Origin: Thuidium tamariscinum | Taxonomy: Eukaryota; Streptophyta; Bryopsida; Hypnales; Thuidiaceae | NCBI GenBank assembly: GCA_947034885.2 | Contig: OX344755.2 | Span: 374,501-438,500, forward strand | Direction of reading: 5' to 3' | Length of the DNA stretch: 64,000 nt | Shown here: one piece after another, positions 7,757 to 64,000 of the stretch | Layout of the letters: each line of letters starts with the position of its first letter | Position numbering within the stretch: position 1 is the first letter of the stretch | Position numbers and translations under genes: made by a program | The notes under the pieces: generated by a model | Told to the model about the DNA's origin: nothing | Seen by the model: the letters and a program-made list of their open reading frames with translations, nothing else | The model's database searches: none

Positions 7757-10700
7757 ATGGAAGTGGGGGATGAAGGTGGCTCACAAGAAGAGGTGGTGGA
7801 AGGATGCCGAGTTCGGCATGGCGAACTATGGAACGAAGATGTGAGGATTCATTACGTGGAATGTGGAGACAAGTATGGAGAACTGGTAACCGATTCGTCC
7901 CCACTTCTGGCGGCACTAGTACGGAAGGCCGATATTGCAATAATTTTTGTCGTGGGTTTGCAATGAACGTAACAATTTTGCAATGGTTTAGTATAACACT
8001 TTGCAGTGTATTTGCGACTATTTGAGAGTGCAATTGCAATAGTTTGGGCAACAGTTTGGGCATAGATATGCATTGGTTTCTTTTGCAACAAATTTGTAGC
8101 GCTTTTGCAATGGTTCGCAACTGACCATAAGTTTTAGCCAAATAAGTAACCGGCCGCTATAAAGCTATTGCAAAGTAATGGATGATGTACATGTGTTGCA
8201 ACTTCTACTTCCTGTTGTAGTGCATCTGCTGCAGCTGTCTGACATCAAATTGTGCCTCCAAGGAGTGATTGACCTTTTTTTGGCTTTGGTTTCCTCCTCT
8301 TCAGATTGTTTTGATCCACGGCTTTCCGAATTTCTGGTATGTTTGGAAAAACCAGTTTCAAGCGTTGGCGGAAGCAGGGTACCACGTGGTGGCACCCGAC
8401 TTGCGTGGTTACAACACCTCGTCCAAGCCAAAGAGTATTCAGGATTATGGCCGACGTTCGGTGGTTTCGGATATGGTGCGCCTCATTGACGAACTTGGGG
8501 ACGGCAAGCCAGCCACGGTGGTCAGTGTTTCTTTCACCACACCTCTAAATTCGTTTGCCACTGAGATTTTCTCATCGGTAAGGTGGAGCACACTCTTTGC
8601 GTCACTTGAAGCGTTGAGATTGAAGAGTGTGATGCTCGGGAGATCACTTCAGAAATAGCTGTGGAGAGATCACTTTGGGTACGCAAAAGCCTAACGCTCT
8701 TGAAATCTTGAGCCTAACTCTCTTGAGGTTTTCAAGAGCGTAATTCTCTTCGGATCAAATTTTTATACTGTGAGATTGCAATGTCTCTTGTGCAATCTCA
8801 TTCAATAAGTTGGACTCTTCAGATCAAATTTTTATACTATGAGATTGCAATCTCTCATGTGCAATCTCATTCAATAAGTTGGAGGTTGTACAATAGATCA
8901 CTATTGAAGAGATGCATAGTGTAAACTTGTCAATCACTGTACAAACATAATTCAAATCCTTCTGAACATAGATATAGAGACTTGCGTGTTTTGAAATTTA
9001 GCATGACTATTAAATGTCATGTTAAGATTTACCTTCAAAAAATAAAATGCAAAAAGATTTCTTCATACAAATTTTATTGCAATTTAAAAGCATTGAAGAA
9101 AAAATCTAGTTAAAAATCCCTTGCAACTCTTGACTGGGCACTGGTGATGCAAAATTTTGTTCCCATCACAATTGAATTGATAGTTGAATTCTACAGTTAG
9201 TGTTTGGTAACTTGGAGGGGTTGCTTTGCGGTTAATGTTTGGAATTGAAAAGGTTGTTTTGAATTTAATGGTTGGTTTACTCTAATAGACAACCTCTAAT
9301 ATTCATTCAAAGATTAGTAGACATAGACAATCAGCCAAGTCATGCTTACATCCAACTTGCTATGTGAAGCCTAACCAACCAAATTTATGAACAAATGAGT
9401 TGTTGTTCGTAATGTGTGAGTGCAGGAATTTGGGATCAAGTGTGTAACAATGTTAATACGCTATAGAATTTTTGCTACTTATTTAAGTTTAAAAATGTAC
9501 ATCACTATTACAATTTTGCCCACAATGGACTTGCTCCCATTTTGCACTTAATGAACTAGTTGATCTTCAAATGTAGGTTGGGCATGATTGGGGTGGATTC
9601 GTGACCTGGGCAGTTGCAGAAGATTTCCCAGACAAGGTGAAGAAAGCAGTGCTTGTCAACGCACCTCATTTATCTGTTTTTAGCGCAGCCCTGCGTTCCA
9701 GTTTTCAACAGGTCCGCCGGAGTTGGTACATCGGTATGTTTTCATGCTTTCATGTTTTCTTACATTCCTGATCACTCATACTTGCAATGTACCATGCATG
9801 GAGGTCAGTTTCATAAGTAACTTGGGAAAATTTGGAAAATGTCAAAATTTAGAAAATTATTTACAACTAATTCTAAAAATTTGAAAAAATTGTTCATGAG
9901 AAAAATTTGAAAAAGAAACACATTCATGCATGAATAGAAAGAATCAATTCAAAATTAGGAGCATCCTCATAAAGTGTCAAAAATTTTAAAAATTCTTATG
10001 TATGCCGAATTACTGAATTGCAAAAAATAAAATATTTAGGAGCATCCTCATGAAGTGCCGAAAATCAAAAAATTCCTATGTATGCCAAATTGTTGAATTG
10101 CAAAAAATAAAATATTTTGGCATGAACTTGCCAAAATTGACCTACACATACGGTAATTCATTCTTACAATACTGGAAAATGCAATGTATAGTCATTGTTT
10201 TTTCCCTTTTTTCTTTGGTAATCCTAAAAGGACTAAGGGGCCCATTTCAAGGTTTTCTAAAACTCAAAAAGGCTTTGTTGGCTTCAAAATTTGGAATTTT
10301 TGTATGAAATGTTTAAGATGGATGCTCATCATGCTAATCTACATGTGAAGCTCTGTTTTGCATCATTTTAATAAATATTGCAAAAGTTAGAAGTTTATAT
10401 TTTTGTTTCGATGTCAAGCCAAGTAGTGAAAAATATATTCTTAGAAAATACTAATTGATGTTGTTGGATTGTATGGATTCATTCTAACTTAAAATCATTT
10501 CTTTGAACTATTGAATTGTGAATAATGAGGTGAAATTTGTAAGAAGTTTTGAATTTTTGCAAGCAATGAAGGTAAAAAAAAACATATAAAGTTATTTCTT
10601 GGATTCAATTTTGAAAATTTCAAATAAAAAAAAATAAAATGGGTGCCTGTTGTTTAATAGAACATTCTCACCATTGGGACAAACAATTCTCAATTTCTTG

Positions 10701-12761
10701 TAAAAGTTATTAGAGGTTTAGTTTTTTCTTCACTTCATTATTTTTTTGAAGATGAATATGAAAGTTTTTTTGGTTAAATTTTCTTACATATATTCTCAAC
10801 CAATTTTTCAACATATTGACTAAAACACACAAGTTATAGGACATACATGTACTTCTCTCTAAAAAATGTTGGAAAACAAAACTTCACCTATTGGAAGGAC
10901 TATAAAAGTTTACATTTTGAAGTTTAGGCACATTGAACTTACAATTATAAGAGGATTTTCAACTAGTGTAGAAGACTGTGAGTTCCTGGACTGCAGGAAC
11001 TTGCTGAAAGCTGCCACAAAGGCGATCTGATGTGGCCAAGAGACTGCCACATCAGATATTAATATTTAATTAATATTTTAATATTTTTTTGAAAAAAATT
11101 ATTTTTAAAATTATTTAAAAAAAATTATTATAATAATTTAAAATAATTTTTAAATAATTTTTAATTATTATTTTATCTAACTGGTTCACAGACTGGAGAC
11201 CGGTCTCTCATAGCCCTGAAAAATCCTCTTATGTGGTGGGGATGTTCACTCCAAAATTTTGGGGTGATGAACTTGAACAAGTTTACATGAAAGGATCCTA
11301 TGACCAGATTTTTTAAGAGATAAATATAGATGAAAGATTTTAGCCTTGCTTTGGGTACAAGTTCTTTGAAGCAGTGTTTTGAACCTCAAAACGTCACAGG
11401 ACTTTTAGGGGTCAAGCTAGCTACTGTAGATATGCATCTGGATATATTTGGTGTTTGAAAATGCTTTGTCTTCAGTGCTGTTGTTTACAGTTGATGTCTA
11501 TTTCTGTCGGCAGGGCTCTTCCAATTGCCGTGGCTTCCTGAGTGGTTTATGGTTGGCAGAGGGTACGTTTCTGAAACATTTTCACAACAGGATTTCCTTA
11601 GAACTCTAGCGAATGCAATAGCTTAATTCACCTAGAAAGTGTAGAAGTTTTTCTTTACAGGATCTCTTTCTTCTGTTGACGTCGCTCTGGTGTTGAGGAT
11701 GTGCAGTTTTAAGAATTTGAAGACCGTATTAAGCAACAGTTCATTCCAACCTCTGGACATTGACAGGTAATGCTCTTAGTTCACTTCATACGGATGCTTG
11801 TTGCAGGCATTAATTTAGAGTAGACTTTAGATTAAGGTCAAGGCACTAGTAACTCATCATTTCAGCATTTTCAGAGCAGATTGTGCATAGTATGAGGTGG
11901 TGGAAATTTTTCCCATGTAGAAAGATAGGAAATATGGAGATAGAAAAATTTTCAGAATTTTATTCCCAAAATTGCTATGAATTTTGGGAAGCAAAAAGTG
12001 CATTTCACTCATAGTCAATGTCTCTAGTCTTCCAATTCTGATCATGCAAAAATTACTTTCTCACCCACTACTTCCTATGCTCCCTAATTTGGGACATATG
12101 TCATAACCATATTAGTCTCAACCTCGAAAAGAACCTTAAAAAATGCAATTTAAACTGGTTGAAAATCTGTTCTGGCCTTGATTGGAAATCCTGCACCCGT
12201 ACAGGTCGGGTGTTGGGCGTGGCTGGTTGTTGGTGCCTCAACCTTACTTGAGAGATTCACAATGTGATCAACCTGTTGCAGACATGTGAGAGCATTTCAG
12301 AAAGTGGGGACAATCACGAGCGCCATCAACTACTATCGAGCGGCGGTTCGGGGGTACTGGTCACCAGCTGCTCCAAGTCTTGTTCCCGTTGAGCTCCCTG
12401 TTGAACTCATTTGGGGTGAGCTCGATACTTTTCTTGGAAAAGAACTGGTCGTGATCTCCAACACCATCGCTTCCAACGTCGTGATCAAGCTTCTCCCACA
12501 TGTCAGTTTCTTCCCAGAGATCCCCTGAAAACATGCCCCATTTTGTACATATAGAAGACTTCTCTTGGAGTGGTTCCAGCGATTTGCACGGAATTCTTCG
12601 TGAGAAAAAAACTCTGTTTATTCATACATAACTTGGATTTTCTGGTGCAGTGCTCACATTGGCCGATGTGGGATGACCCCAAGCAATTCAATGCGCTTCT
12701 CCTAGAATCCGATGATTCGCACCATGCAATCTCTGCCGACGAGGTGCACAATGATGATTAA
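7757..12761 (+). CDS. Soluble epoxide hydrolase (alpha/beta-hydrolase fold)
   Basis: Seven exons: 7757-7885, 8305-8520, 9577-9733, 11514-11562, 11698-11766, 12282-12501 and 12651-12761. They give 316 residues, normal for plant soluble epoxide hydrolases. These enzymes open epoxides, for example of fatty acids, to diols. The oxyanion-hole HGFP is at residues 48-51 and the nucleophile is D119 in VGHDWGG. Cap-domain Tyr candidates are Y224/Y225 in NYYR. The acid is D255 in WGELD and the base is H283 in CSHWPMWD, so the triad is intact. The start is the first ATG in frame with exon 1; an upstream non-coding or short coding exon is possible because the same frame stays open back to about 7640 without an ATG. 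Introns 2 and 3 are long (1.1 and 1.8 kb) and hold repeats, including a TIR element. The gene converges with the helicase-PARP gene. Confidence 0.88.
8753..8884. repeat. Two tandem 69-bp units with an internal hairpin
   Basis: Two units begin at 8753 and 8822 with few differences. Each contains GAGATTGCA followed by its complement TGCAATCTC about 10 bases later, so each can fold into a 9-bp stem. It lies in intron 2 of the epoxide hydrolase. Confidence 0.85.
10947..11232 (+). mobile_element. MITE-like TIR element, family E copy 1
   Basis: 286 bp with terminal ATAAGAGGATTTT and its complement. An internal dyad of the type TGATGTGGC...GCCACATCA lies at about 11029-11057, followed by an AT-only centre. 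A second copy in opposite orientation is at 37336-37609. It is non-coding and sits in intron 3 of the epoxide hydrolase. Confidence 0.7.
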
Positions 12762-13440: not shown

Positions 13441-16400
13441 TCAGAGTGCGGAATAGTGAACTACATATCTGGGGAGTAATTGACTCGCATCCTTGATCAC
13501 ATGCACATCTTTGGACCCCCCGCTGGTGTGATGGCTGCCAAATTTGCCCAGGATGACAGTTGACAGCAACATCATCTTAGAGCCTTGACAATAACGCTCT
13601 GAAATGTCAGGATTAACTGCCGTGTAGACACCGCGCCCATAAACATCTCCACATTTTATGGGTACTCCCTCTCCTCCAATCTTGAATCCCTCCATAGCAA
13701 TCTTACCGATTGCGGCAGAGTCAGTTCCATGAAAGAGAAACTGTTGCTCGATTGAGACTTTCGATGCCTTGAACTCATCCGTTTTCTGTTTGAAGTTTTC
13801 TTCAAGGCGCAAATTTCTTATGAACTCAACTTTGATCACCTACATCAGCAGAGACGGATGAGTAATGCAAGCGACCAACGAAGACTCCTCCAAGGTCAGC
13901 AATCCAGTGCTCTGGCCACATGTCGAAGAACGCACAAAGCTCTTAAATTCGACATTTTTTCATGTAATATTCAAAGACTTTCACTGAAGGAAATTCTGAA
14001 GATTCTAGAAATTCTGAAGAACTGTCTTACCTTCATTCTCCGGTTCTGGGACATGCGATAGAACTGGGACTCCGCTACTCGGAAGTGGTAATCTTCTGGA
14101 GTCAAACCTTGAACACGTGCTGAAGGCAACAGTTCAAGACGACACGCTCCACCGTTTCTGATTGCCATCTCTTCACCAAATCTCCCAAATTCACGATTTT
14201 CAGCAAGGGCTTCGAGGTTCTCGAGCTTGTAAGACACCATGAAACGAGGAATGGCTTGGTCCGGGTTGAAAATGACATGCGCAGTAGGCCTGGATTCGTC
14301 TTCATTCTCATGCCTTCCAACCAGGGACACCGAGTCACAGCTATCGTTTCGGAGCTTGATACGATCAGTCACTTTGTCTAGAGACTCAGAACTAGGCAAC
14401 CTGCAATATCAAGACAATTCTAGGTTCGTAATTGTGCACCTTGGTTTTTGACTTCTCACATACCACACGATGGGCCGATTCAAATTTGTAAGAGGAACAT
14501 TCACTGCAGATGTGTCGGTCCACATGAATCAGAAACAGGATGTGTGAATTTGGACAAAAGTTCATCTTTTGCAAGCGTACCTCCAAGTCTTCCCAAGAAG
14601 TACTTCGCAAAGCAAAAGGTTTTTGTTGTTTTGAGCAATGCTCGACGGGTAAACATCAAATCGATGTGCCTGTCACGCCCCTCCCCAACATATGCAGAAT
14701 AAGAAATCTCCGATACTGGCACCCCGATCGATCGATACATAGATAGATCGATAGATCGATACATAGATAGATAGATAAGACAGGTTTGAGGAACTTACCT
14801 TCTCATGTGAAGCCCTAAAGCCCTTATTTACAACCTGGTTCATCAGATCGTCAGAACCACCATAGAAAAGCCACTCCGGAATCTCCAATGGATCAAAAAG
14901 TTCTTTATGGGCTTCCAGAAACTTTTTCTGGAGCTTAAGGTTTTCGATTCTTTGCACTTTGGTGACAACCACCATGACTTTGCTGTCTGGTTGGGTATAC
15001 TTCTCAGTCCTGTCTTTAGCCTGCAACACTCATCCCACACATTGAGAAGGTTACACTTGGTACAAAATTTTCTAATTCGCAAGTTCAAGGTAGTTCTTTC
15101 AAGGTAGTTCTTTAGAGTTTTAGGTAGAACCTCGTACCCAAAAATATGAGCGTGCCGTGTCGTCATCTGGGAGCACTTGCTTAACGTCAATCCCTTCGCT
15201 TCCTTTCTCTTTAAGCTTCGCAATGTCCTCCTCTAGCTCTTTCTTTTTGTTTGCAATTGCCTCGATGCGAATCTGTAATCTTATTTTCTCTTTCGCTCTC
15301 TCAATCTCTAAGCAGTCTTCGCAAGGGGCGCTTTCACAGCTGTCAGAGCAGTGCAATTTGCACATGTGGGAGCACTTGTCGAGCTTCTTCCCGCAAAGCA
15401 CCTGGCATTTGAGTCGAAGCTTTTTGGCCCCTGTCACTTTCCAGCATTCCTCCTCCTTGCTATGACCGCAGGGAGTGAATTTATGGATGACCTTCCTGTG
15501 GCAACGAAGGTCCTCTACGGCTTGATGGCACTTCCGGGTCCCTGAGTGATCACAGAGAGGGAAAATAAACTCCACTGGCTCTGTGCATAAAACGGTATGG
15601 GGTCCAAAGTGACAAGTACGACTACAGACATGAGTGCACGGCAAAATTTCTTGGCACGGGTGACCGCACACGTCACGTGGTTCAAATTGCGAGCCTTCAG
15701 TATTGCTGAGTGCAAATGGTGCTTTGTCCGGATGCCGAGGACAGCACAACGAAATAGACGAATCAATGGCGTTGAGACCTTCAAAGTGGTTGACCAAGGT
15801 CTTCCAGTGATCAGATCTCCGTGCAAGAGTAGCATGGTTTCCAACAAAGTAAACACCACGACGAGCTCTAGATGCGGCAACACACATTCGATTCCGCATG
15901 CCCAAATGACCAATTTTCCCTTCTCCATTGGACCGCACAAGCGAGACTATCACAATCTCGCTCTCAGAACCCTGGCAGAAGAATAACAACATTTCAGGAT
16001 AATATTAGAAATTTATCCTCTTCTGAACAAGATTAACTTGAAACACCATTTAAAACGTCATTCGAATAAGCGAAATGTGAAAATTTTCAATTTATTAAGC
16101 TTGTCGAATGAACCAGACCATGAGAATGGCGCACCTGAAAACTGTCAATGGAATGGACTTCAACGCCTGTAAGTTCCAAATAGTTTCCCATCAGCGAGCG
16201 GATGAGCGTCACCTGCAGCAAGCAGAAGGCATGGTCACCAATTACGAAAAAGCGAGATGATTACATTGGAAGTAGTGCTGGATTCTTTCTGGTCCGGCGT
16301 CGAGCTCACTCACCTGTCCATTGTAAGCAGCCAGAACCTTGAGACTTTCAAGATTCGAAAGCTCCGAAGCAATCCACCTGGTGAGGGCAACCACCATGCG

Positions 16401-19400
16401 CGCTTCGTCCTGATTCACGAAACTGCGCTGGCTCGTCTCTGGATATGAATGAGACCAGAAAAACATGGTCCTCGCCATGCATGTGGGCGCTTCGTTTCGT
16501 CTCCCCGACACCAACAAAGTCTGGGATTTTAAGTCAGGATAGATGGGTCGAAGCATTTCCACGAATTCTTCGCGCATTCGGCATTGCAGGCCTAATTGCT
16601 GACACGGCAATTTGTTGAGTTCCACCAGCCGTTCAAACATTGATACGCCAAACCCATGGCTAGCGCACATCAGATGAAAATTCAAGGCATTAGTTATCAA
16701 TGCCTGGCTGTAAGCAGCAGTGGAACGTAAATCAACTGAGAAAATCAACCAATTACCTACCTTCGCTCGAGTTCATACGACTCCACTTGAGGTCGGAGCT
16801 GCTGGTGGTCCCCAATTAGAATGAGGTGCTGCAGATTGGAATTCAGGCAGGCGAGAACCTGCGGCTCCAGGATCTCCGCCGCCTCCTCCACCAAAACAAC
16901 CGCAGGAGAGAGATGCCTGACCACACTTTGGTGCATTGCTGCTCCCTGCAAAATTCATCACGGCGTTTCAACTAATCTGGAGAGTACTCAGAGTGGGTTT
17001 TAGTGCTGTAAATTACTAAAGCTCTAAACAGAAAAGGTTGTTCAGACAGGCATGAATTTTAGGAGCATGTGATAACGACATGTGCACATCGGTTACAATA
17101 GAGTGTAATAGCTTACAGTAGTAGTCATTCCAATTATTTTGGCCTTCTGAAGAACAGCTAGCTTGCGGCGCTGTCTTATTTGTTCTGTATCTTGCAACAA
17201 GGTATCATAATCTGCTTTCAGACTTGTCAGCCGCTCGCAAGCTCCGTTCACACTCTCTTGCCAGTATTTGTACACCAAGATTGCACAATGCTCCGGTAAT
17301 AAATCATACGGATTTTCATGTGCAAGCCAATCGAACTGACTTCCAATAAGGTCCAGCTGATGCATGATCATTCGGTTCCACTCAAGATGTCAACATCATT
17401 AGCAAGTATCTCATGCCCAGAATGGAAATATACCACAGCAAATATGTCCGACCAGCTTTCATCTGTTTGATTTTGCAGCACGGCACGTTATATAACACTG
17501 AAATATGTCCATGCTCTACAATATTGACAGCGGAAAGTTTGAATCTCTTACGTTCAATCGGTGATATGTCATTGACGCGCCACGGACATCCTTCATCGGA
17601 AATTTCATGAAGCTGCTGCTAAGTAACCATTGGACAGTGTTTTTTGAGAGCCGGGGGTCAATCGATACGGTGTCAGTATCGAGGTTGATTTCCAGGCGAA
17701 GGCTTTCGTAGGCAGCCCTTCGTTCTTCTTCTTCCTTTCGTCTTTCATCCTCCTCATCGGATAGGACAGATTCCTCTGCGGAAACATGGTCATACTGCGG
17801 AATTCTGCTGCTAACGGGTTTCTTCAAGATAAGAAAGGCGAGGGCGGATTGGAGCACCTTCGGACTCGGCATCCATCTCTTCATCTCCGCGACCAGAAGT
17901 TGCCTGAAGATCAATACATCAGACGCTAACGTCGGGTCTGCGTCCGCTGGAATTGGACGTCCTCGAAGTAGTTGAACTAGGGTAAGACCTTTCGGCAACT
18001 TTCTGGAACATGAATCAATCATGGAACGGGGATGCACAGCATGTTCCAAGAAGTGGTGCAAGTGCAGTTCCGGGGAATGCTCCACGATCATACTTGGATC
18101 GAAGTTGTCGAGATATCGTTTGACGATGTCGAACACCTCCTTCATGACTCCCCTGAGATCTTCAAGATTCTCGCGGTTCTCAGCAAGGTCGGATCGAAAC
18201 TCGTCGTCGGATTTGATCATGCGATTCAAGTTATGTGATTCCAGTTTTTGGCTTTTGCTGCGCCCGCCCACACGCACAATGTTGGGTTCGAAGGCCAGAC
18301 ACCTCTCCAGAAACTGGTCAAGGGCATGGTTCTTCAATGTAATGACGAACACGGGGCAATCTTTCGGAAATGTACTCGCCGAAAGCAGCAGTTGCAACAG
18401 CGTCACCCCCACATGCGTCTTCCCTGTGCCGGGTGGACCCTGGATCATGGCCAGCCGGTTGTGGACCGCGAGCTCCACGGCTTTGAGTTGACTGGGATCA
18501 AAGCTGGTCTTGTATCCACGCTCCAGAAGGGATGTCGCTGCTCCCACTCCATCCCGAATCTCACCAGGTTGAAGCAGCTGTAACATCCCCACATTGGCCT
18601 CACGCTTTCTTTCAAAGATGCAACTCCAGTCGAGTGTTACCGTTTCATCGGGGTTGCTGAGGTACTCTGGAGTCGGATCCTGTGGCCATGTCACGGACAC
18701 AAGCTCTTCTCTGAATGGAACACTCTCCGGATCGGTCAGCTGCAGTGTCTCCAACACTGGCTGGTATGCCTTGTAGTATGTGGGACTTTCCGCCATCACC
18801 ATGTCCTTGCCTTGCATGAGCAGCACGCACTGAAAGCACCACGAATTCGTGTCAGTGTTCGAAGCTTCCACTCCGATTGTCAGAGTTATGATGTCCACGA
18901 AACATATGGTGCATTTATTCACTGCATCTTCTTCACACCGGCTGACGACGCCCCAAATTGGGCACTCAAAGCCACCATCATCCTCGAAAAAACACACCAA
19001 GCTTCCTGCAAGGGGCGCCTTCGCCTTCGCCTTCGCCTTACTCTTCGGCAGCATGAAAGCTAGGGTGAGACCCGGAGACGCGTTAAAATTGAAGTGGACT
19101 CCACACGCAGAGACTTTGGACCACAGCTTCATGTCACAATCTTCGGGTTTCCCCTGGCACAATGCGTGTATCCCCTTCAACAAACCTGCAAAGCAGTCCT
19201 CTCGTAGCAACCTTAGGTATGTGTCCAGGTACTCCTCCGGGCCGTCGTAAGGCCCGATCTGTTTCACCACCGGAAGATTGGAGCGAGTTGAACGATTCGG
19301 GGTTTGGACTTCTTCAAGGGTTGGAAGCAATGGTAATTGCGACCACGGAATCTCTTTGCAGCTACTCCCGCCAGCAAGTACGCCCAGAATCTTCCGGTGA

Positions 19401-20395
19401 AACGTTTCAGCACCGTCAGAGAGAACGAGTGCTTCCAAGGCTTTCTCTAGATACGCCTTGCCCTCCGCATGAAGGTGCGGCAGGACTAGCTCGAGGTCGG
19501 TGAAGAGAGTCGCAATACTTTCAGACTGTCGAGGATTTCGGGTAAGTATCAGAGGCGCAATCGTTGGCAATTGCGATGGAGAGAACTCTAGCAGATGTAC
19601 CAGGAAGCCCTGCAAAAGCTCACTCCAGCGTTGCTCGCTACCACTCAGATACTTCGCCCATGATCGCACGCCATGCTGCGACGTGAGGAATGGCGATCCA
19701 GCAAACAGAGCGTACATCTGCTTCAACCGCGAGTGGTACAGCCCACTACTGCAGCTCAGGACCTGACAAAGCTGCAGAGCCTGTTGTATGAGCTCGTTGG
19801 AAGGAGCTCGGCAGTCCAAAACAAGCTTGAACGCAATTGAGCACTTAGTGAGCACTCTCAATACGACCTCGGGCTGCTGTTTGGCAGCGGTCAGCAGGCT
19901 GTCCACATACGATTCCAGTTTTTTGACATCGCGAGGTTTGCATTCACGTAGCCTTGCAATGTGCGCTCGGGGCGTATCGTGGAAAGTAGAGTTACTCCTG
20001 GCAATCTCATACTCCATAATGTCGCCTGGCATTAATACCATGCCGCCCGTCGAAGTGGCCGTCGACTCCAAAGGATTCCCAAGTCTAAAATACACGTTAC
20101 TCGTATTCGCAGACCTCGATTCTCCCTCGAGTAATGGTGACAGGAATCCGAAACCCCTTTGGTAGTTGACGTTCAAAACGGTTCCGAGGTGAAACACCTT
20201 CGCTGGCTTTGGGGTGACTGGGCTGCGAGAGCCACCGCCGCTTGATGAGGTCGCTGGCAGCTTCGAATTCGGCTTCCTCCAATTCTCCTCGGAGCTGCTG
20301 TTGCCCACACGCTTGCCGGAAAAAGTCGAAGAAGCCCCTCCAGGAGAGTCCTTCCTTCTGCTCGAGCTTTCACCGGACTTCGAAGGGGAGTCCAT
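13441..20395 (-). CDS. ZNFX1-type SF1 RNA helicase fused to tandem PARP domains
   Basis: Ten exons: 17552-20395, 17117-17380, 16761-16945, 16314-16659, 16135-16212, 15138-15971, 14799-15020, 14581-14669, 14031-14400 and 13441-13839. They sum to 1,877 codons including the stop. Domains in order: Ser-rich leader (1-66); cold-shock-like segment with GTVLNVNYQRGFGF (about 67-150); ZNFX1-type N-terminal region with YLDTYLRLLRED; helicase Walker A GPPGTGKT (653-660), Walker-B-like VEEAAE (1055-1060), GDHQQLRP (1081-1088), a QCRMRE motif and GSESEIVIVSLVRSN with ASRAR. A Cys/His-rich NFX1-type region follows (about 1341-1459), then a charged coiled coil (1460-1497), PARP-like domain 1 (about 1540-1690) and PARP domain 2 (1745-1876). 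Family knowledge: ZNFX1 proteins act in small-RNA inheritance (worm) and antiviral dsRNA sensing (mammals). That this protein couples RNA sensing to ADP-ribosylation is inference. The ATG at 20395 opens a 948-codon exon. Confidence 0.9.
14728..14777. repeat. GATA/GATC microsatellite in an intron
   Basis: A short run of gata and gatc tetranucleotides lies in the 129-bp intron between the first two exons of PARP-like domain 1. It is non-coding in my gene model. Confidence 0.85.
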
Positions 20396-35864: not shown

Positions 35865-36542
35865 CTAATCCAAAATTTTGTCCTTGAGTCCACTAGGAAA
35901 TTGAGCTACCAAATCAGATTCATTCCAATCAAGTTGAGCCGCATATTCGTTAAACATAGAAATATAATTGGCCACTGACTCCGTTTGTCGAAGCTTTCCT
36001 AAGCGATCCTCGGCATTGCTCCTATAATCAATATCTCCATATGCTACAATCACGAACTCTCGAAATGCATTGTAATCGCCTAATAATTTGTGATCGTGTT
36101 CCTCGTCTAAAGCTTGAAGAAGAGGTATAGCCCAATTTTGTGCCGCTCGGATCATATATGAAAGAGCATAAGCTACTTTATCTGCATTAGAGCTATAAGC
36201 TTGTGGTTTACCTCAAAATACAAGACGGAGTTGTGCAAACCAATGGTACACCTCATTTCCTTTCTTCCCAAAAAACTTATCCGATTCTGCCACCTTAGAT
36301 TCTTTGGATTCAATGTTCAATTCCACACCCCTTCCAGCTAATACTCCCCCTCAGCTAGATGTGGGAGAGACCACCGGTCGTGGTCCTCCAACCACTTGAC
36401 TGGAAATCTCTTGCATCAAATGAGGAATTGTAGCTTCGAAAACACTTTGAATTTGTTGTTGGATGAAGGCTGCCCACTCTGGACCCATCCCATCTGGCAC
36501 CAATGCTTCCCCCGAATTGACTACCGATGGCTCTTGATCCAT
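35865..36542 (-). pseudogene. Broken LTR-retrotransposon gag remnant
   Basis: An ATG-started frame (36351-36542) and a second frame (35865-36155) are separated by stop codons. Their content follows the order of Retrotrans_gag proteins: an F-x-G-K-K type core start, an Ala-rich NWA segment, then L-x-KLRQTESVANYISMF and FPSGLKDKIL. No protease, reverse transcriptase or LTR is seen nearby. It is most likely a decayed Ty3/Gypsy-type fragment; the superfamily is inferred from gag only. Confidence 0.65.
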
Positions 36543-48100: not shown

Positions 48101-51100
48101 TGTGTTTTCAGGAGTACTATGAATTTTTTTTCTAAAGTGTTTAATTTAATTTTTTTTTAATTTGAAAAATATAGAATATGCATGTACCTTTGAGAAGAAG
48201 ATACCCTTGAATAAAAAGCATAGAAAAATTCTCTAAGTAGTAGAACTTGAAAAGTGTAAAATCTCAAGAAACTAGGTACTTTAACGTTATAATTTATTAA
48301 AAAATATAATTTTTTTAATAAAAAACTAAAAATGAAAACTTTTAATGATAATTCTATGGAGATGATTATGCAACAAAAAGAACACCAAAATAATGTTTAT
48401 GTCTTTCAAATTGCAAGTAGAAAGGATCTCCTTTTGTGAGCTTGGACCACATGACATAAAATTAACTATTTCTGAAAATCTTTTAAACAATAGCTATAAA
48501 TATATTAAAAGACTACCTCCTAATTTCAGCTCCAAATTTATAAATAGAAAAATACAGAAGGTAAAATAATACAATACAAAATAGTACAATACAATTTTTT
48601 TTTAAATTTTCAAAAAGATTAGATGAAGTCTATAACAGTCATGAGTACCTTACTCATAAATCTCAAGTTGTTCAAGCCAAAACACAAAAGGTATGACCAA
48701 GAAACATATTTGTGTGCACGGTGTGACATTGAAATAATACAAGTGTTTCTTGCAAGCCCACATGAAAAATACAAAGTGACAAATATGAAATTTTTTTTTG
48801 ACAAGAAACTGAAATTCTTCAGGGATCAGTATAAAATCACGTTTATGGCGAGTAACGTCTATCTCCTTCAAAATATACTTTGAATTATTATTAGAGGCTA
48901 CATATGTGAAGAGAAAACAAAACAAATGTTATTAAAGACTAAATATGTCAGGAAGATGAATAATGTGCTTCACAGTGTGTGTCAAGGTGACTCTCCTGTA
49001 CTTTTGTTGTAAGTTGCGCCGCCTAAATTAGAACATTCTGTATCATTTCTACATGCACTCCTGGGAACAGACAATAGAGGGTGCCAAGTTTCGCTCACAT
49101 ACCTATGATGTTAGAGTAAGGACCTTCACTTGCTTGCTTTCTCCTGGTATCCTCTACATTGTCTTCTCCACTATTACTAGATGATATCTCAGCGTCCTGG
49201 TTGCAAATCACAGAATGGGAATCTCGGAATGACAAATCTTTAGGGTGGGACACTTGCAGTTCGTTGTTTCCTCCGGAGTGATGCAGAGCTCCTCCCGATT
49301 GATGCCAGTGAAACGGATCTTGCTGGTGTTTGCCTCCATTTACATTCACGGAGACTTGCTGTTTGTAACCGTTCGAGTGAATAGCTTCCGGAAACATGGG
49401 CAACGGAGACGGGTGGAATTGTCCTGCGCATATGACTTTTTTTTTCAGAATATGGTAAGTAGACCCATAACTCAAAACGAATAAAGACTTGACTAACAGC
49501 ACTACACCGTGACTGGGCAGCTTATATGCAATGATACGGAGTCGAGGCGAGTTTCGTTCTCTTAAGTACTCACCAAAATTTCTGGTGCCGTGATGCTGGT
49601 CACTAGACTTCTTTGAGATTTTTGGAGTTGATTCACTAGGATGTAACCCATTTGATACAACGGATTTCGGGTTCCGTTTGTATTCGGGACTGGCATAATG
49701 ATGTGCGACTGGTTCAGGGTGTGAAGATTCCCGAGAGCAAATGGCTTTCTCTTGAGCACATCCCGATGATTCGCTTGCTGAATCGCTTGGAAGACTTACG
49801 TGACCATTCTTGGATCCCCTGGACATCGTCTGAAGAATTTCTTTATCTAAAGAGTCAAGGGAAAATTCGTGCCTTCTTCCATTATCATTAACTTGATTAA
49901 ATCCACGTCTAACGATATCCGGATTCCGTCCCTTGTTTCTTGCAGAAACTAGTGATTGCCGGCCAAACTCTGCAATTAAATTGTTCGATTAGTACAAATT
50001 GTGAGGAATGCCTAAGTAACTGTCAGAATACTCATCAGATAACCTTGCTAAGTCATACATGTGCCAACCAATCAAACCATATCTGCCAACCTACATTTAA
50101 GGAAAAGAGTAGACAAAAAACAGCTATGAACTTCGGCGAAGTGTAAGATGGTAAGAGAAATAACTGGATATGGAAGAGTGCTCCATAGGTAGTAGCTTTC
50201 GCAATGTGCACAACTCACGCTGGGTGCATTCTTAACATGCTAAAGTCTAGGTCCCGCCGAACTAGGAAAAGGTGTACATTATCCGCTCCCTCGTAAATGT
50301 GCGTACTGAAGCATCAAAGAGTAAACTCGTAAGGCTTTGCTGTCCTCTCATACACATTCAACGGTCAGCAGATCATCACAGACAACTCCACAAACACTCC
50401 TCTTTCATAATTTAAAAGCAACAAACATCTGAGAAAGCTTTGCCCACAGGACAAATAATTGAACAACGTAGAGGGCAGGACGACGGAAAAGAATCCGAAA
50501 AAAGTCTAAGAAAGTAGATCAGAGATCAATTCAATTGACCTCTACGACAGAATAATTATTATTTCCAAGATGACTTTCCTAAACGTCAGTCTGACTTCAG
50601 ATTGCACAAAACTTACTTACATATCAGAGAGCAACGATTTACAAGAGACAGATCTTTCTTCCAGCGTCCATTCACACTCTTGTCAGTCCACCACAGAGTA
50701 TTCGAGTCGAAGATTATGGATCTTCCGAATCTGTCAGCACAAAAGACAACACAACTTCATCATCCAATCCAAGTGCTGAATACAAATAAAACTAGAAAAA
50801 ATTGTACTTCTGCCAAGACCGGTTTTAACTAGATTTGTCTCACTCGAGCCCTCGAGCCTTTCTAGGAAGTGACCTTAATTGGTCAATGCAGTGGTTAGCG
50901 TGACAGGGTGAAAACTTGCTTGTAAGAACTTATAAGTAGGCGAAATTTTCCCTCAAAAGACCATAAAATACCGCTATTATAATGATAAGCGGGTGATGGA
51001 AAATGTAAGTTATACTGAATCAAGTCCATTGAATAATCTTTTTACCATGGAGTGTGTCGACGCAGATTTTCAATAAACTAAAAGGCGATGCTGAAAAGCA

Positions 51101-52293
51101 TCAGTCACTGATTCACGAGGGACGAAAGAGACTCGACACTGAGCTTTCGACGCCATTGCTGTTTGCTATCTAGCGCATCATTCCTAAACTTAACTTTAAG
51201 CTCGTCCACGAATCCTGTCTGCCGCAGGGGGAGAGAGCAGCTAGAACATAGTTAAGCACATGGGTTTCCAGTCTCATTCTAAATAACTGATGCAATAACG
51301 CATTACAATACTTGGGAAAGTGCAACGATGCACTGCACCGTTGCAGCACTGTAACGATGCATTGCACTGTTGCAGATCTTAAAGATTTCTTTCCAGAAAA
51401 TACGACTACGGCGCGGAAGGTTCTACATCGCGAAATCGCGAAAGAAAAGAACGTCGAAATGCAGGAAAGAAAAAAAAACGAGAAAGAAAAAGAAACCCGA
51501 CGAGCTTAACGCCGGGTTACGATCCTCCCTGAGTGCATATCGGGAAATTTGCTACCCTCGGGCTACCGCCCTCGGGCAGCAATTTCCCGATATGCACTCA
51601 CGGAGGGTCGTAACCCCTTACTTTCATCTGCGAGATATTCGACATTTCTGTAATCATGATGAGGTATGCGAAAAACATACTCTGCATAGCTACATTGAGA
51701 GAATTGTAAAGAAATTTGGAGGAGCTCCGTTAATGGTAATACACTCACAAAATGCAAGAAACGTCTACCAGCTTGTACTGTACGACGAGGAGAGGAGAGA
51801 ACGATTCGTGGTGCTTTCACATGAGCTCACGACTAATCGGATGAAATCTCTCATACCTGACGTACTACTCAAAGCATGGACAATATACGCAAGCATACAG
51901 CTCTTTCAATGCGCAAGTTCGCCTAACTTGCGCGCAGATGTGAAGATCTCACTAACGCATGGACAGACTCGGTGATCGCCAATGCCAGTCCTGGAGGAGG
52001 TAGAAAATGCAGTGAATTTTTACATACAGCTTTAAATCAGCGAAGAAGCGGTACTCACAGTGTATCGTCCCGAGTCGATCCCGAGCTCGCATCTCACCGA
52101 GGCCGCAGGAGCTCGCTGCAGTCCAAGAATTGAAAGGATGAAAACTCGGTGCGACAGATTGAGGGAGAGTCGTCTGGACTCTGGACTCTGGAGGAGAGAA
52201 TGAGAGCAATCGAGATCTGGAATTCGTGAGGAAGGTTAAGTTTGGATAGTGATGCGAGCGTGGAAGCCATAGCTGGCGCCTCGCCCTCTTCAT
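45168..52293 (-). CDS. Large remorin-family protein
   Basis: Eight exons: 52098-52293, 49574-49969, 49103-49423, 47842-48009, 46875-47330, 46141-46621, 45499-45580 and 45168-45395. They total 2,328 bp, or 775 residues. The C-terminal third holds the remorin_C coiled-coil region: AWALAWEEAERAKYTARF, then IKAWEEHQKAKAEARMRK, KLEKLHESASQKM and RAEYIRQTGSAP. It ends with MGCF plus a short tail, near the usual remorin membrane-anchor position. The long N-terminal part is Ser/Pro-rich and probably disordered, with KWDDAGKWIASP (about residues 322-333) typical of long plant remorins. Remorins are plasma-membrane nanodomain proteins acting in signalling and in plant-microbe contact. Exon 1 and its 2.1-kb intron are the weakest part of the model: phase fits, but the leader could be untranslated. 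Exons 1-3 lie in the inverted repeat. Confidence 0.8.
48069..48759. mobile_element. TIR element, family D copy 2, in a remorin intron
   Basis: 691 bp from GGGTGATTGCAAGAAAC to GTTTCTTGCAAGCCC, inverted relative to 36623-37630. It lacks the nested family E insertion and so shows the empty site. It lies in the intron between remorin exons 3 and 4. Confidence 0.65.
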
Positions 52294-52382
52294 GTCGTTC
52301 CTGATCGGTCAGGGGAAAGAGACATCGCGTGCATTTCGTCAGACAAGAGAGATGGACTTATAACCGTGTGACACCACCGTCA
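48933..52382. repeat. Left arm of a giant inverted repeat
   Basis: Position x here pairs with position 112,933 minus x in 60551-64000. Every stretch I compared, coding, intronic and palindromic, is identical. The inner boundary is sharp: bases 52382 and 60551 still pair, the next do not. The outer boundary cannot be seen because the window ends, so the arm may extend left of 48933. Confidence 0.95.
51514..51616. repeat. Near-perfect hairpin in remorin intron 1 (left copy)
   Basis: About 40 bases from GGGTTACGATCCTCCCTGAG onward pair with the right half ending at 51616, with two or three mismatches and one bulge. The loop of about 25 bases holds two CCCTCGGGC copies. It could be a fold-back element or a small-RNA precursor; the sequence does not decide. 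Confidence 0.85.
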
Positions 52383-60338: not shown

Positions 60339-60639
60339 GTGTGAAATATTCCACATCATTTCATACACACGATAAAATCATGTAAAATATTTCACTAGAT
60401 GTTATGTACAACACCGCTTTGGCACTTCGTAAAAAATAGGGGAAAAAGGCCCTGAACATCAAGTGCAGGGGCTTCCATCATTGAAACCTGATTGATGAGA
60501 CTGTTGCAGACTTCCGCATGTTACTTGGCAGTATGGCTTCGACAGTACTGTGACGGTGGTGTCACACGGTTATAAGTCCATCTCTCTTGTCTGACGAAAT
60601 GCACGCGATGTCTCTTTCCCCTGACCGATCAGGAACGAC

Positions 60640-63600
60640 ATGAAGAGGGCGAGGCGCCAGCTATGGCTTCCACGCTCGCATCACTATCCAAACTTAACCT
60701 TCCTCACGAATTCCAGATCTCGATTGCTCTCATTCTCTCCTCCAGAGTCCAGAGTCCAGACGACTCTCCCTCAATCTGTCGCACCGAGTTTTCATCCTTT
60801 CAATTCTTGGACTGCAGCGAGCTCCTGCGGCCTCGGTGAGATGCGAGCTCGGGATCGACTCGGGACGATACACTGTGAGTACCGCTTCTTCGCTGATTTA
60901 AAGCTGTATGTAAAAATTCACTGCATTTTCTACCTCCTCCAGGACTGGCATTGGCGATCACCGAGTCTGTCCATGCGTTAGTGAGATCTTCACATCTGCG
61001 CGCAAGTTAGGCGAACTTGCGCATTGAAAGAGCTGTATGCTTGCGTATATTGTCCATGCTTTGAGTAGTACGTCAGGTATGAGAGATTTCATCCGATTAG
61101 TCGTGAGCTCATGTGAAAGCACCACGAATCGTTCTCTCCTCTCCTCGTCGTACAGTACAAGCTGGTAGACGTTTCTTGCATTTTGTGAGTGTATTACCAT
61201 TAACGGAGCTCCTCCAAATTTCTTTACAATTCTCTCAATGTAGCTATGCAGAGTATGTTTTTCGCATACCTCATCATGATTACAGAAATGTCGAATATCT
61301 CGCAGATGAAAGTAAGGGGTTACGACCCTCCGTGAGTGCATATCGGGAAATTGCTGCCCGAGGGCGGTAGCCCGAGGGTAGCAAATTTCCCGATATGCAC
61401 TCAGGGAGGATCGTAACCCGGCGTTAAGCTCGTCGGGTTTCTTTTTCTTTCTCGTTTTTTTTTCTTTCCTGCATTTCGACGTTCTTTTCTTTCGCGATTT
61501 CGCGATGTAGAACCTTCCGCGCCGTAGTCGTATTTTCTGGAAAGAAATCTTTAAGATCTGCAACAGTGCAATGCATCGTTACAGTGCTGCAACGGTGCAG
61601 TGCATCGTTGCACTTTCCCAAGTATTGTAATGCGTTATTGCATCAGTTATTTAGAATGAGACTGGAAACCCATGTGCTTAACTATGTTCTAGCTGCTCTC
61701 TCCCCCTGCGGCAGACAGGATTCGTGGACGAGCTTAAAGTTAAGTTTAGGAATGATGCGCTAGATAGCAAACAGCAATGGCGTCGAAAGCTCAGTGTCGA
61801 GTCTCTTTCGTCCCTCGTGAATCAGTGACTGATGCTTTTCAGCATCGCCTTTTAGTTTATTGAAAATCTGCGTCGACACACTCCATGGTAAAAAGATTAT
61901 TCAATGGACTTGATTCAGTATAACTTACATTTTCCATCACCCGCTTATCATTATAATAGCGGTATTTTATGGTCTTTTGAGGGAAAATTTCGCCTACTTA
62001 TAAGTTCTTACAAGCAAGTTTTCACCCTGTCACGCTAACCACTGCATTGACCAATTAAGGTCACTTCCTAGAAAGGCTCGAGGGCTCGAGTGAGACAAAT
62101 CTAGTTAAAACCGGTCTTGGCAGAAGTACAATTTTTTCTAGTTTTATTTGTATTCAGCACTTGGATTGGATGATGAAGTTGTGTTGTCTTTTGTGCTGAC
62201 AGATTCGGAAGATCCATAATCTTCGACTCGAATACTCTGTGGTGGACTGACAAGAGTGTGAATGGACGCTGGAAGAAAGATCTGTCTCTTGTAAATCGTT
62301 GCTCTCTGATATGTAAGTAAGTTTTGTGCAATCTGAAGTCAGACTGACGTTTAGGAAAGTCATCTTGGAAATAATAATTATTCTGTCGTAGAGGTCAATT
62401 GAATTGATCTCTGATCTACTTTCTTAGACTTTTTTCGGATTCTTTTCCGTCGTCCTGCCCTCTACGTTGTTCAATTATTTGTCCTGTGGGCAAAGCTTTC
62501 TCAGATGTTTGTTGCTTTTAAATTATGAAAGAGGAGTGTTTGTGGAGTTGTCTGTGATGATCTGCTGACCGTTGAATGTGTATGAGAGGACAGCAAAGCC
62601 TTACGAGTTTACTCTTTGATGCTTCAGTACGCACATTTACGAGGGAGCGGATAATGTACACCTTTTCCTAGTTCGGCGGGACCTAGACTTTAGCATGTTA
62701 AGAATGCACCCAGCGTGAGTTGTGCACATTGCGAAAGCTACTACCTATGGAGCACTCTTCCATATCCAGTTATTTCTCTTACCATCTTACACTTCGCCGA
62801 AGTTCATAGCTGTTTTTTGTCTACTCTTTTCCTTAAATGTAGGTTGGCAGATATGGTTTGATTGGTTGGCACATGTATGACTTAGCAAGGTTATCTGATG
62901 AGTATTCTGACAGTTACTTAGGCATTCCTCACAATTTGTACTAATCGAACAATTTAATTGCAGAGTTTGGCCGGCAATCACTAGTTTCTGCAAGAAACAA
63001 GGGACGGAATCCGGATATCGTTAGACGTGGATTTAATCAAGTTAATGATAATGGAAGAAGGCACGAATTTTCCCTTGACTCTTTAGATAAAGAAATTCTT
63101 CAGACGATGTCCAGGGGATCCAAGAATGGTCACGTAAGTCTTCCAAGCGATTCAGCAAGCGAATCATCGGGATGTGCTCAAGAGAAAGCCATTTGCTCTC
63201 GGGAATCTTCACACCCTGAACCAGTCGCACATCATTATGCCAGTCCCGAATACAAACGGAACCCGAAATCCGTTGTATCAAATGGGTTACATCCTAGTGA
63301 ATCAACTCCAAAAATCTCAAAGAAGTCTAGTGACCAGCATCACGGCACCAGAAATTTTGGTGAGTACTTAAGAGAACGAAACTCGCCTCGACTCCGTATC
63401 ATTGCATATAAGCTGCCCAGTCACGGTGTAGTGCTGTTAGTCAAGTCTTTATTCGTTTTGAGTTATGGGTCTACTTACCATATTCTGAAAAAAAAAGTCA
63501 TATGCGCAGGACAATTCCACCCGTCTCCGTTGCCCATGTTTCCGGAAGCTATTCACTCGAACGGTTACAAACAGCAAGTCTCCGTGAATGTAAATGGAGG

Positions 63601-64000
63601 CAAACACCAGCAAGATCCGTTTCACTGGCATCAATCGGGAGGAGCTCTGCATCACTCCGGAGGAAACAACGAACTGCAAGTGTCCCACCCTAAAGATTTG
63701 TCATTCCGAGATTCCCATTCTGTGATTTGCAACCAGGACGCTGAGATATCATCTAGTAATAGTGGAGAAGACAATGTAGAGGATACCAGGAGAAAGCAAG
63801 CAAGTGAAGGTCCTTACTCTAACATCATAGGTATGTGAGCGAAACTTGGCACCCTCTATTGTCTGTTCCCAGGAGTGCATGTAGAAATGATACAGAATGT
63901 TCTAATTTAGGCGGCGCAACTTACAACAAAAGTACAGGAGAGTCACCTTGACACACACTGTGAAGCACATTATTCATCTTCCTGACATATTTAGTCTTTA
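60640..64000 (+). CDS. Second copy of the remorin 5' region (partial, cut by window end)
   Basis: Mirror of the first three exons of the minus-strand remorin gene: 60640-60835, 62964-63359 and 63510-63830, with the same splice sites and no disabling change. It would be read outward, away from the other copy. Whether exons 4-8 with the remorin_C domain follow past 64000 cannot be seen, so this may be a full paralogue or a 5' fragment. Confidence 0.7.
61317..61419. repeat. Near-perfect hairpin in remorin intron 1 (right copy)
   Basis: Mirror image of 51514-51616 with the same mismatches and loop. Confidence 0.85.

Follow-up and report, generated by a model that had tools for sequence, protein, structure and literature searches.

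The window analysed here, 64,000 nucleotides (nt) of the moss Thuidium tamariscinum (GenBank assembly GCA_947034885.2, contig OX344755.2, positions 374,501 to 438,500), carries on its minus strand a gene that very probably encodes a single polypeptide of 1868 amino acids (aa), in which a ZNFX1-type helicase is followed by two PARP domains. The favoured explanation, with chances that appear evenly balanced, is that this polypeptide couples an RNA helicase to a mono-ADP-ribosyltransferase activated by RNA. Judged by its domains, the moss protein would be more than a fusion alone: a ZNFX1 that lacks the RZ finger of its human counterpart and bears a different effector. The coding sequence begins with the ATG at 20395, and its stop codon ends at 13441. 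The features of the gene are as follows (window positions; ART, ADP-ribosyltransferase; SF1, superfamily 1):

13441..20395, minus strand: complete coding sequence in ten exons, 1868 aa (exon joining; locus found again in the search of the moss's own genome)
20395-17552, 17356-17117, 16945-16761, 16659-16314 and 16212-16135, minus strand: exons 1-5
15971-15138, 15020-14799, 14669-14581, 14400-14031 and 13839-13441, minus strand: exons 6-10
19946..20185, minus strand: N-terminal stretch, aa 71-150, with the look of a cold-shock-type beta-barrel (GTVLNVNYQRGFGFLSP ... PGDIMEY; by eye)
16778..18502, minus strand: first core domain of the SF1 helicase, AAA_11, aa 632-1084, exons 1-3 (Pfam and ZNFX1 alignment)
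15834..16649, minus strand: second core domain of the SF1 helicase, AAA_12, aa 1094-1277, exons 4-6 (Pfam and ZNFX1 alignment)
15312..15746, minus strand: putative NFX1-type Cys/His-rich region in exon 6, aa 1307-1451 (first part aligned to 9q9z)
15138..15311, minus strand: charged linker, probably a coiled coil (coiled coil by eye only)
14220..15158, minus strand: PARP-a, a degenerate ART domain, aa ~1503-1673, from the last part of exon 6 into exon 9 (Pfam, BLAST, alignment)
13444..14114, minus strand: PARP-b, an ART domain with an H-Y-V triad, aa ~1709-1868, exons 9-10 (Pfam, profile alignment)

The joined frame contains one terminal stop only, and its nine introns are all of the GT-AG type, 101-195 nt long, with matching phases. 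An initial annotation, made from the sequence alone, had placed the gene at 13441-20395 with ten exons, and these coordinates are correct; the strand, which it did not give, was supplied by the present analysis. Exon 4 has an alternative in-phase acceptor at 16707 that would add 48 nt (16 residues). The acceptor at 16659 was preferred because YELERSHGFGVSMFERL then matches YDLAKNFNLEVSLFERL of ZNFX1 without a gap. An extra 40-nt exon between exons 8 and 9 (14503-14464) was dropped: it breaks phase with the PARP-like frame of one neighbour, and without it exons 8 and 9 are in phase with each other. Pfam was run on the joined protein, and the absence of a family was judged at E<=1.

By similarity, residues ~1-1450 are a ZNFX1-type helicase. 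In a search of the whole PDB with residues 1-1509, the best match was human ZNFX1 (9q9z; 5e-107), followed by aquarius (9e-30) and UPF1-type helicases (~1e-28), and the SF1 core is thus closest to ZNFX1. Pfam identified AAA_11 (2.4e-26) and AAA_12 (4.1e-32). The Walker A and B, QxRM and SF1 C-terminal motifs recognized in the initial annotation are borne out, as GPPGTGKT, VEEAAE, QCRM and SRA line up with human ZNFX1 and the SF1 motifs are intact; the core segments IGMTTTGAA and LIGDHQQLRP also fall within the alignment. The similarity extends to the ZNFX1-specific region upstream of motif I, where residues 287-658 of a 661-aa query aligned with residues 421-781 of 9q9z (E=4.7e-28). Downstream, the proposed NFX1-type Cys/His region matches human ZNFX1 until the solved chain ends (1.4e-23 with the exon as query, including the end of the helicase), but Pfam gave no zf-NF-X1 row for the joined protein. 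A cold-shock domain at aa 71-150 was considered and rejected, since nothing beyond visual likeness was found for it: Pfam and NCBIfam gave no match, and PDB matches were at chance level only.

When the moss's own genome (363 Mb, 19 contigs) was searched with the full protein, 21 stretches matched. Ten are this locus, two belong to a PARP paralogue on C5, and the other nine are parts of helicase cores at 28-42% identity that we labelled as other SF1 helicases, as expected. No second ZNFX1-type helicase was seen in the 363-Mb genome by this search, which scored the best candidates only and which a very divergent copy could escape. The gene appears to be single-copy.

The PARP family (PF00644) was found in the joined protein at 9.7e-21 (74.6 bits; cut-off 26.7) and, with the threshold set to 1, covers two stretches. 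The PARP-b exon on its own scores 3.5e-15, and PARP-a scored above the Pfam cut-off (3.5e-7) when the exons had been joined by hand in an earlier model. Most of the domain can be aligned between PARP-a and PARP-b (E=2e-8), so that a duplication is the probable origin of the two. In PARP-b, profile alignment places the H of FHGTD, the Y of GRGVY and the V of DVHVIKD on the triad places of PARP12, an arrangement that, read from the alignment, is the H-Y-hydrophobic pattern of mono-ADP-ribosyltransferases. In PARP-a, Tyr replaces His in LFYGG, the GxGxY loop is absent and Ala stands at the third place. Both PARP segments of the initial annotation were thus recovered, but only PARP-b keeps the catalytic residues; PARP-a is apparently dead and PARP-b apparently alive. 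Intron 7, where PARP-a lacks the catalytic loop, holds a GATA microsatellite (14725-14777).

An ART profile was built from PARP-b, its C5 paralogue and PARP-a. It matched 89 distinct PDB sequences at E<=0.01, of which the best 60 were inspected; among the matches listed, the closest were PARP13/ZAP (2.2e-12) and PARP12 (1.6e-11), then the tankyrases (4.6e-10), PARP15 and PARP14. The whole PARP tail as a single query found PARP14 first (2.8e-6), and PARP-a alone gave weak PDB matches only, tankyrases first (0.011). We accordingly describe the tail as "Clade 3-like" and no finer, a placement drawn from similarity and not from a tree. The marks of Clade 1, a WGR domain and an H-Y-E triad, are absent: the Pfam rows include no WGR, and V stands instead of E. 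Nor do they include the WWE, macro, RRM or CCCH domains that are usual, though not universal, companions in Clade 3.

The C5 paralogue is a stand-alone relative of PARP-b at C5:14440860-14442003 (L010 4858-6046), of which two exons were found. It is 58-68% identical to PARP-b, depending on stretch and method, keeps its His and Tyr and shares its intron site, after the lysine of NRRMK/NRTKK; an acidic stretch precedes its PARP unit. The helicase part has no match at E<=1 at this locus, including flanks of 9.9 and 10 kb, and the PARP unit can therefore exist without the helicase. Over 131 codons and by three methods, the nonsynonymous divergence (dN) between PARP-b and the paralogue is ~0.23, the synonymous divergence (dS) 0.88-1.08 and dN/dS 0.22-0.26, which indicates purifying selection on at least one copy since the duplication. 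These estimates apply to the PARP-b/C5 pair, the helicase and PARP-a being without a paralogue in the genome.

The helicase-free PARP-b-like unit speaks for the rival view that the model wrongly joins two adjacent genes, one for a ZNFX1 helicase and one for a PARP. Retention of intron 6 would point the same way, giving a helicase stop at 15122-15120 and a possible helicase-only form. Yet only 144 nt separate the read-through stop from the earliest PARP methionine (14975), a space that would have to accommodate the 3' end of one gene as well as the promoter and 5' end of the next, and this methionine is already inside the domain. An in-frame TGA stands three codons upstream of exon 7, and intron 6 is an ordinary GT-AG intron of 117 nt, within the size range of the other eight. 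The similarity between PARP-a and PARP-b begins in the last residues of exon 6 (BLAST; weak at that end), which is suggestive only as a sign of fusion. A codon-usage score trained on exons 1-6 and compared over three frames ranked the model frame first in each of the four PARP exons, with a clear lead in 7 and 9 and a weak one in 8 and 10; its support for the fusion is limited by the narrow margin in exon 8 (0.13 vs 0.07) and by the values of exons 8 and 10 (0.13, 0.08), which do not exceed the best intron frame (0.15). Because of the 144-nt gap and the codon usage in the PARP exons, we consider two genes very improbable, and the single helicase and PARP polypeptide put forward in the initial annotation, with its agreeing phases, is the best reading. 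It is harder still to believe that the locus is decaying or chimeric and without function. The degenerate PARP-a and the microsatellite of intron 7 could be taken as signs of decay, but 1868 open codons, intact helicase motifs and the purifying selection on PARP-b and its paralogue argue strongly otherwise.

Whether the single polypeptide acts as a transferase is a separate matter. Its PARP part could instead be a tail without catalysis, a scaffold or ligand binder like that of PARP13/ZAP, the protein then acting solely as a helicase that binds RNA. The His and the loop are gone from PARP-a, V stands at the third triad place of both PARP-b and PARP13 in the profile alignment, and PARP13, the closest solved relative of the ART profile among the matches listed, is described as inactive in PMC8946771, though PARP13 has also lost the His. 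Several further points weigh against an RNA-activated transferase. PARP-b is ~20 residues shorter than PARP12 in the C-terminal half, so that activity is not assured, and we know of no well-studied active H-Y-V PARP. Single-sequence AlphaFold models of two contiguous pieces reached mean pLDDT values of 30.0 and 37.3 and give no structural support, RNA activation of the moss protein is borrowed from human ZNFX1, and the fusion, helicase and ART claims are all drawn from one genome. Against a purely non-catalytic tail, PARP-b retains both His and Tyr (LFHGTD, YGRGVY), whereas PARP13 has Tyr for His (LFYAT), and the C5 paralogue, under purifying selection as a pair with PARP-b, keeps the same residues. 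On balance such a tail is unlikely, if deserving of some weight. Less probable again is a helicase of a small-RNA pathway that acts with an RNA-dependent RNA polymerase (RdRP) in silencing, its PARP part being a regulator and not a defence effector. Precedents are C. elegans ZNFX-1, which sustains small-RNA amplification, and fission-yeast Hrr1, which works with an RdRP; both are given as ZNFX1 orthologues in PMC9276528. RdRP genes are present in the moss genome (12 matching stretches). However, RdRPs are general in plants, so their presence makes no specific link, and nothing found ties the helicase/PARP gene to silencing.

If the protein is indeed an RNA-activated mono-ADP-ribosyltransferase, its ATP-driven loading on long or aberrant RNA would cluster it, by analogy with human ZNFX1 as presented in a review (PMC13270118). 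Clustering would bring PARP-b to PARP-a or to other copies of the protein and thereby switch PARP-b on. PARP-a may be a non-catalytic, built-in partner of PARP-b, which is plausible because the ART domain of PARP15 is reported to function only as a dimer (PMC12572374). PARP-b would then mono-ADP-ribosylate its own chain, nearby ribonucleoprotein components or the bound RNA, and the modification would mark or sequester that RNA; PARP10, 11 and 15 modify RNA in vitro according to PMC8946771. The setting would likely be either defence against foreign RNA or the quality control of RNA. Of these steps the direction towards defence is the least secure, as it leans on animal relatives, and any role in double-stranded RNA sensing, RNA silencing or antiviral defence, as envisaged in the initial annotation, is one that we infer.

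Human ZNFX1 (PDB 9q9z) shares with the moss protein the SF1 core and the ZNFX1-specific upstream region, and the putative Cys/His region aligns with it. At its C-terminus, however, stands an RZ finger resembling the one in RNF213 (PMC12075652), where the moss protein has two ART domains instead. This finger is linked to ubiquitin ligase activity: human ZNFX1 is described as an E3 ligase activated by long single-stranded RNA in PMC13270118, a review that also notes two studies of the human protein at odds on whether RNA itself is modified. No RZ row (PF20173) was obtained for the moss protein at E<=1, and a scan of the six frames of the 64-kb window with three RZ-like patterns gave no hit. In the genome as a whole, RZ matches occur at three places (C3, C5 and C10), and next to every one of them runs a long open frame (907, 935 and 863 aa). 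The 4-kb stretches around them (L071, L072, L073) contain no match to the window protein at E<=1, and the one adjacent open frame that was tested has no PDB match; our guess is that these places are RNF213-like. The plain reading is that PARP domains were added to a plant ZNFX1 already without RZ, and the bold one that they were swapped for it.

PARP matches occur at 8 places (17 stretches) in the moss genome. With the 1868-aa protein as query, tblastn gave no match at 1e-3 to the six other PARP places tested. One gene combines WWE and PARP and was labelled by us as RCD1 type. Another, on C8 (L009 2752-6024), is a single frame of 1091 aa that joins PARP (5.2e-12) to a ubiquitin-conjugating-type domain (UQ_con, 1.1e-8), a PARP6/8-UBCc form that PMC4245714 reports from Physcomitrella and Chlamydomonas. 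Such Clade 6 proteins of moss, green alga and fungi resemble the moss fusion in joining an ART to a second signalling enzyme, but their ART is of another clade and its partner is a ubiquitin E2 rather than a helicase. Plant Clade 2 (RCD1/SRO) and Clade 1 PARPs share the PARP catalytic family with the moss protein, in which WWE, RST and WGR rows are absent from Pfam. PARP12 and PARP13/ZAP, of the Clade 3 mono-ART type and the closest solved relatives of the ART profile among the matches listed, are likewise RNA-directed proteins with a C-terminal ART; the moss protein differs in having no CCCH finger or WWE among its Pfam rows and in using a helicase as its RNA side. According to PMC2964712, Clade 2 was found in land plants only, and Clade 6 in Physcomitrella and also in green algae; the WWE and PARP gene and the PARP and E2-type gene of the present genome fit a moss source best. 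Clade 3 is placed in all eukaryotic supergroups by PMC4245714 and in no plant by PMC2964712; since the two conflict, we do not claim that plants lack Clade 3. No relatives were confirmed in viral contigs (two scans) or prokaryote genomes (one scan), in scans that reach close relatives only.

Elsewhere in the window, an exon of an alpha/beta-hydrolase gene lies on the plus strand at 8269-8655 (PF00561, 8.9e-16); the stretch at 12268-12525 looks by eye like the end of this gene and has no Pfam match. A retrotransposon gag fragment is found on the minus strand at 35868-36212 (PF03732, 1.4e-9). The arms of a perfect inverted repeat, each at least 3450 nt long (48933-52382 and 60551-64000), lie 8168 nt apart; the repeat is cut off by the end of the window and would be a recent palindrome or an assembly artefact. 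On C4, two macro-domain places with near-equal scores, C4:19421680-19422381 (plus strand) and 19463489-19464190 (minus strand), lie ~41 kb apart in opposite orientation and are possibly another inverted duplication in the assembly.

No description of a ZNFX1-helicase/PARP fusion was found in the literature searched by title and abstract start, with most subscription papers outside its scope, in agreement with the initial annotation, which knew of no characterised plant protein with this combination. The main texts of three PARP surveys (PMC2964712, PMC4245714, PMC12785305) contain neither "helicase" nor "NFX1", and a further survey (PMC9503650) states that immunity based on ADP-ribosylation is without evidence in land plants. 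We tentatively suggest an effector swap, which is possible though doubtful: a ZNFX1 chassis that detects long RNA in humans and serves ubiquitin transfer there would here drive ADP-ribose transfer onto itself or RNA, in what would be the first ADP-ribosylation-based RNA immunity in land plants. With a mono-ART-type domain and an RNA-sensing-type helicase in one gene, RNA-triggered ADP-ribosylation in plants becomes directly testable. If the swap is true, ZNFX1 would be a sensor platform that takes different covalent effectors, and this would bear on how human ZNFX1 turns RNA binding into a signal.

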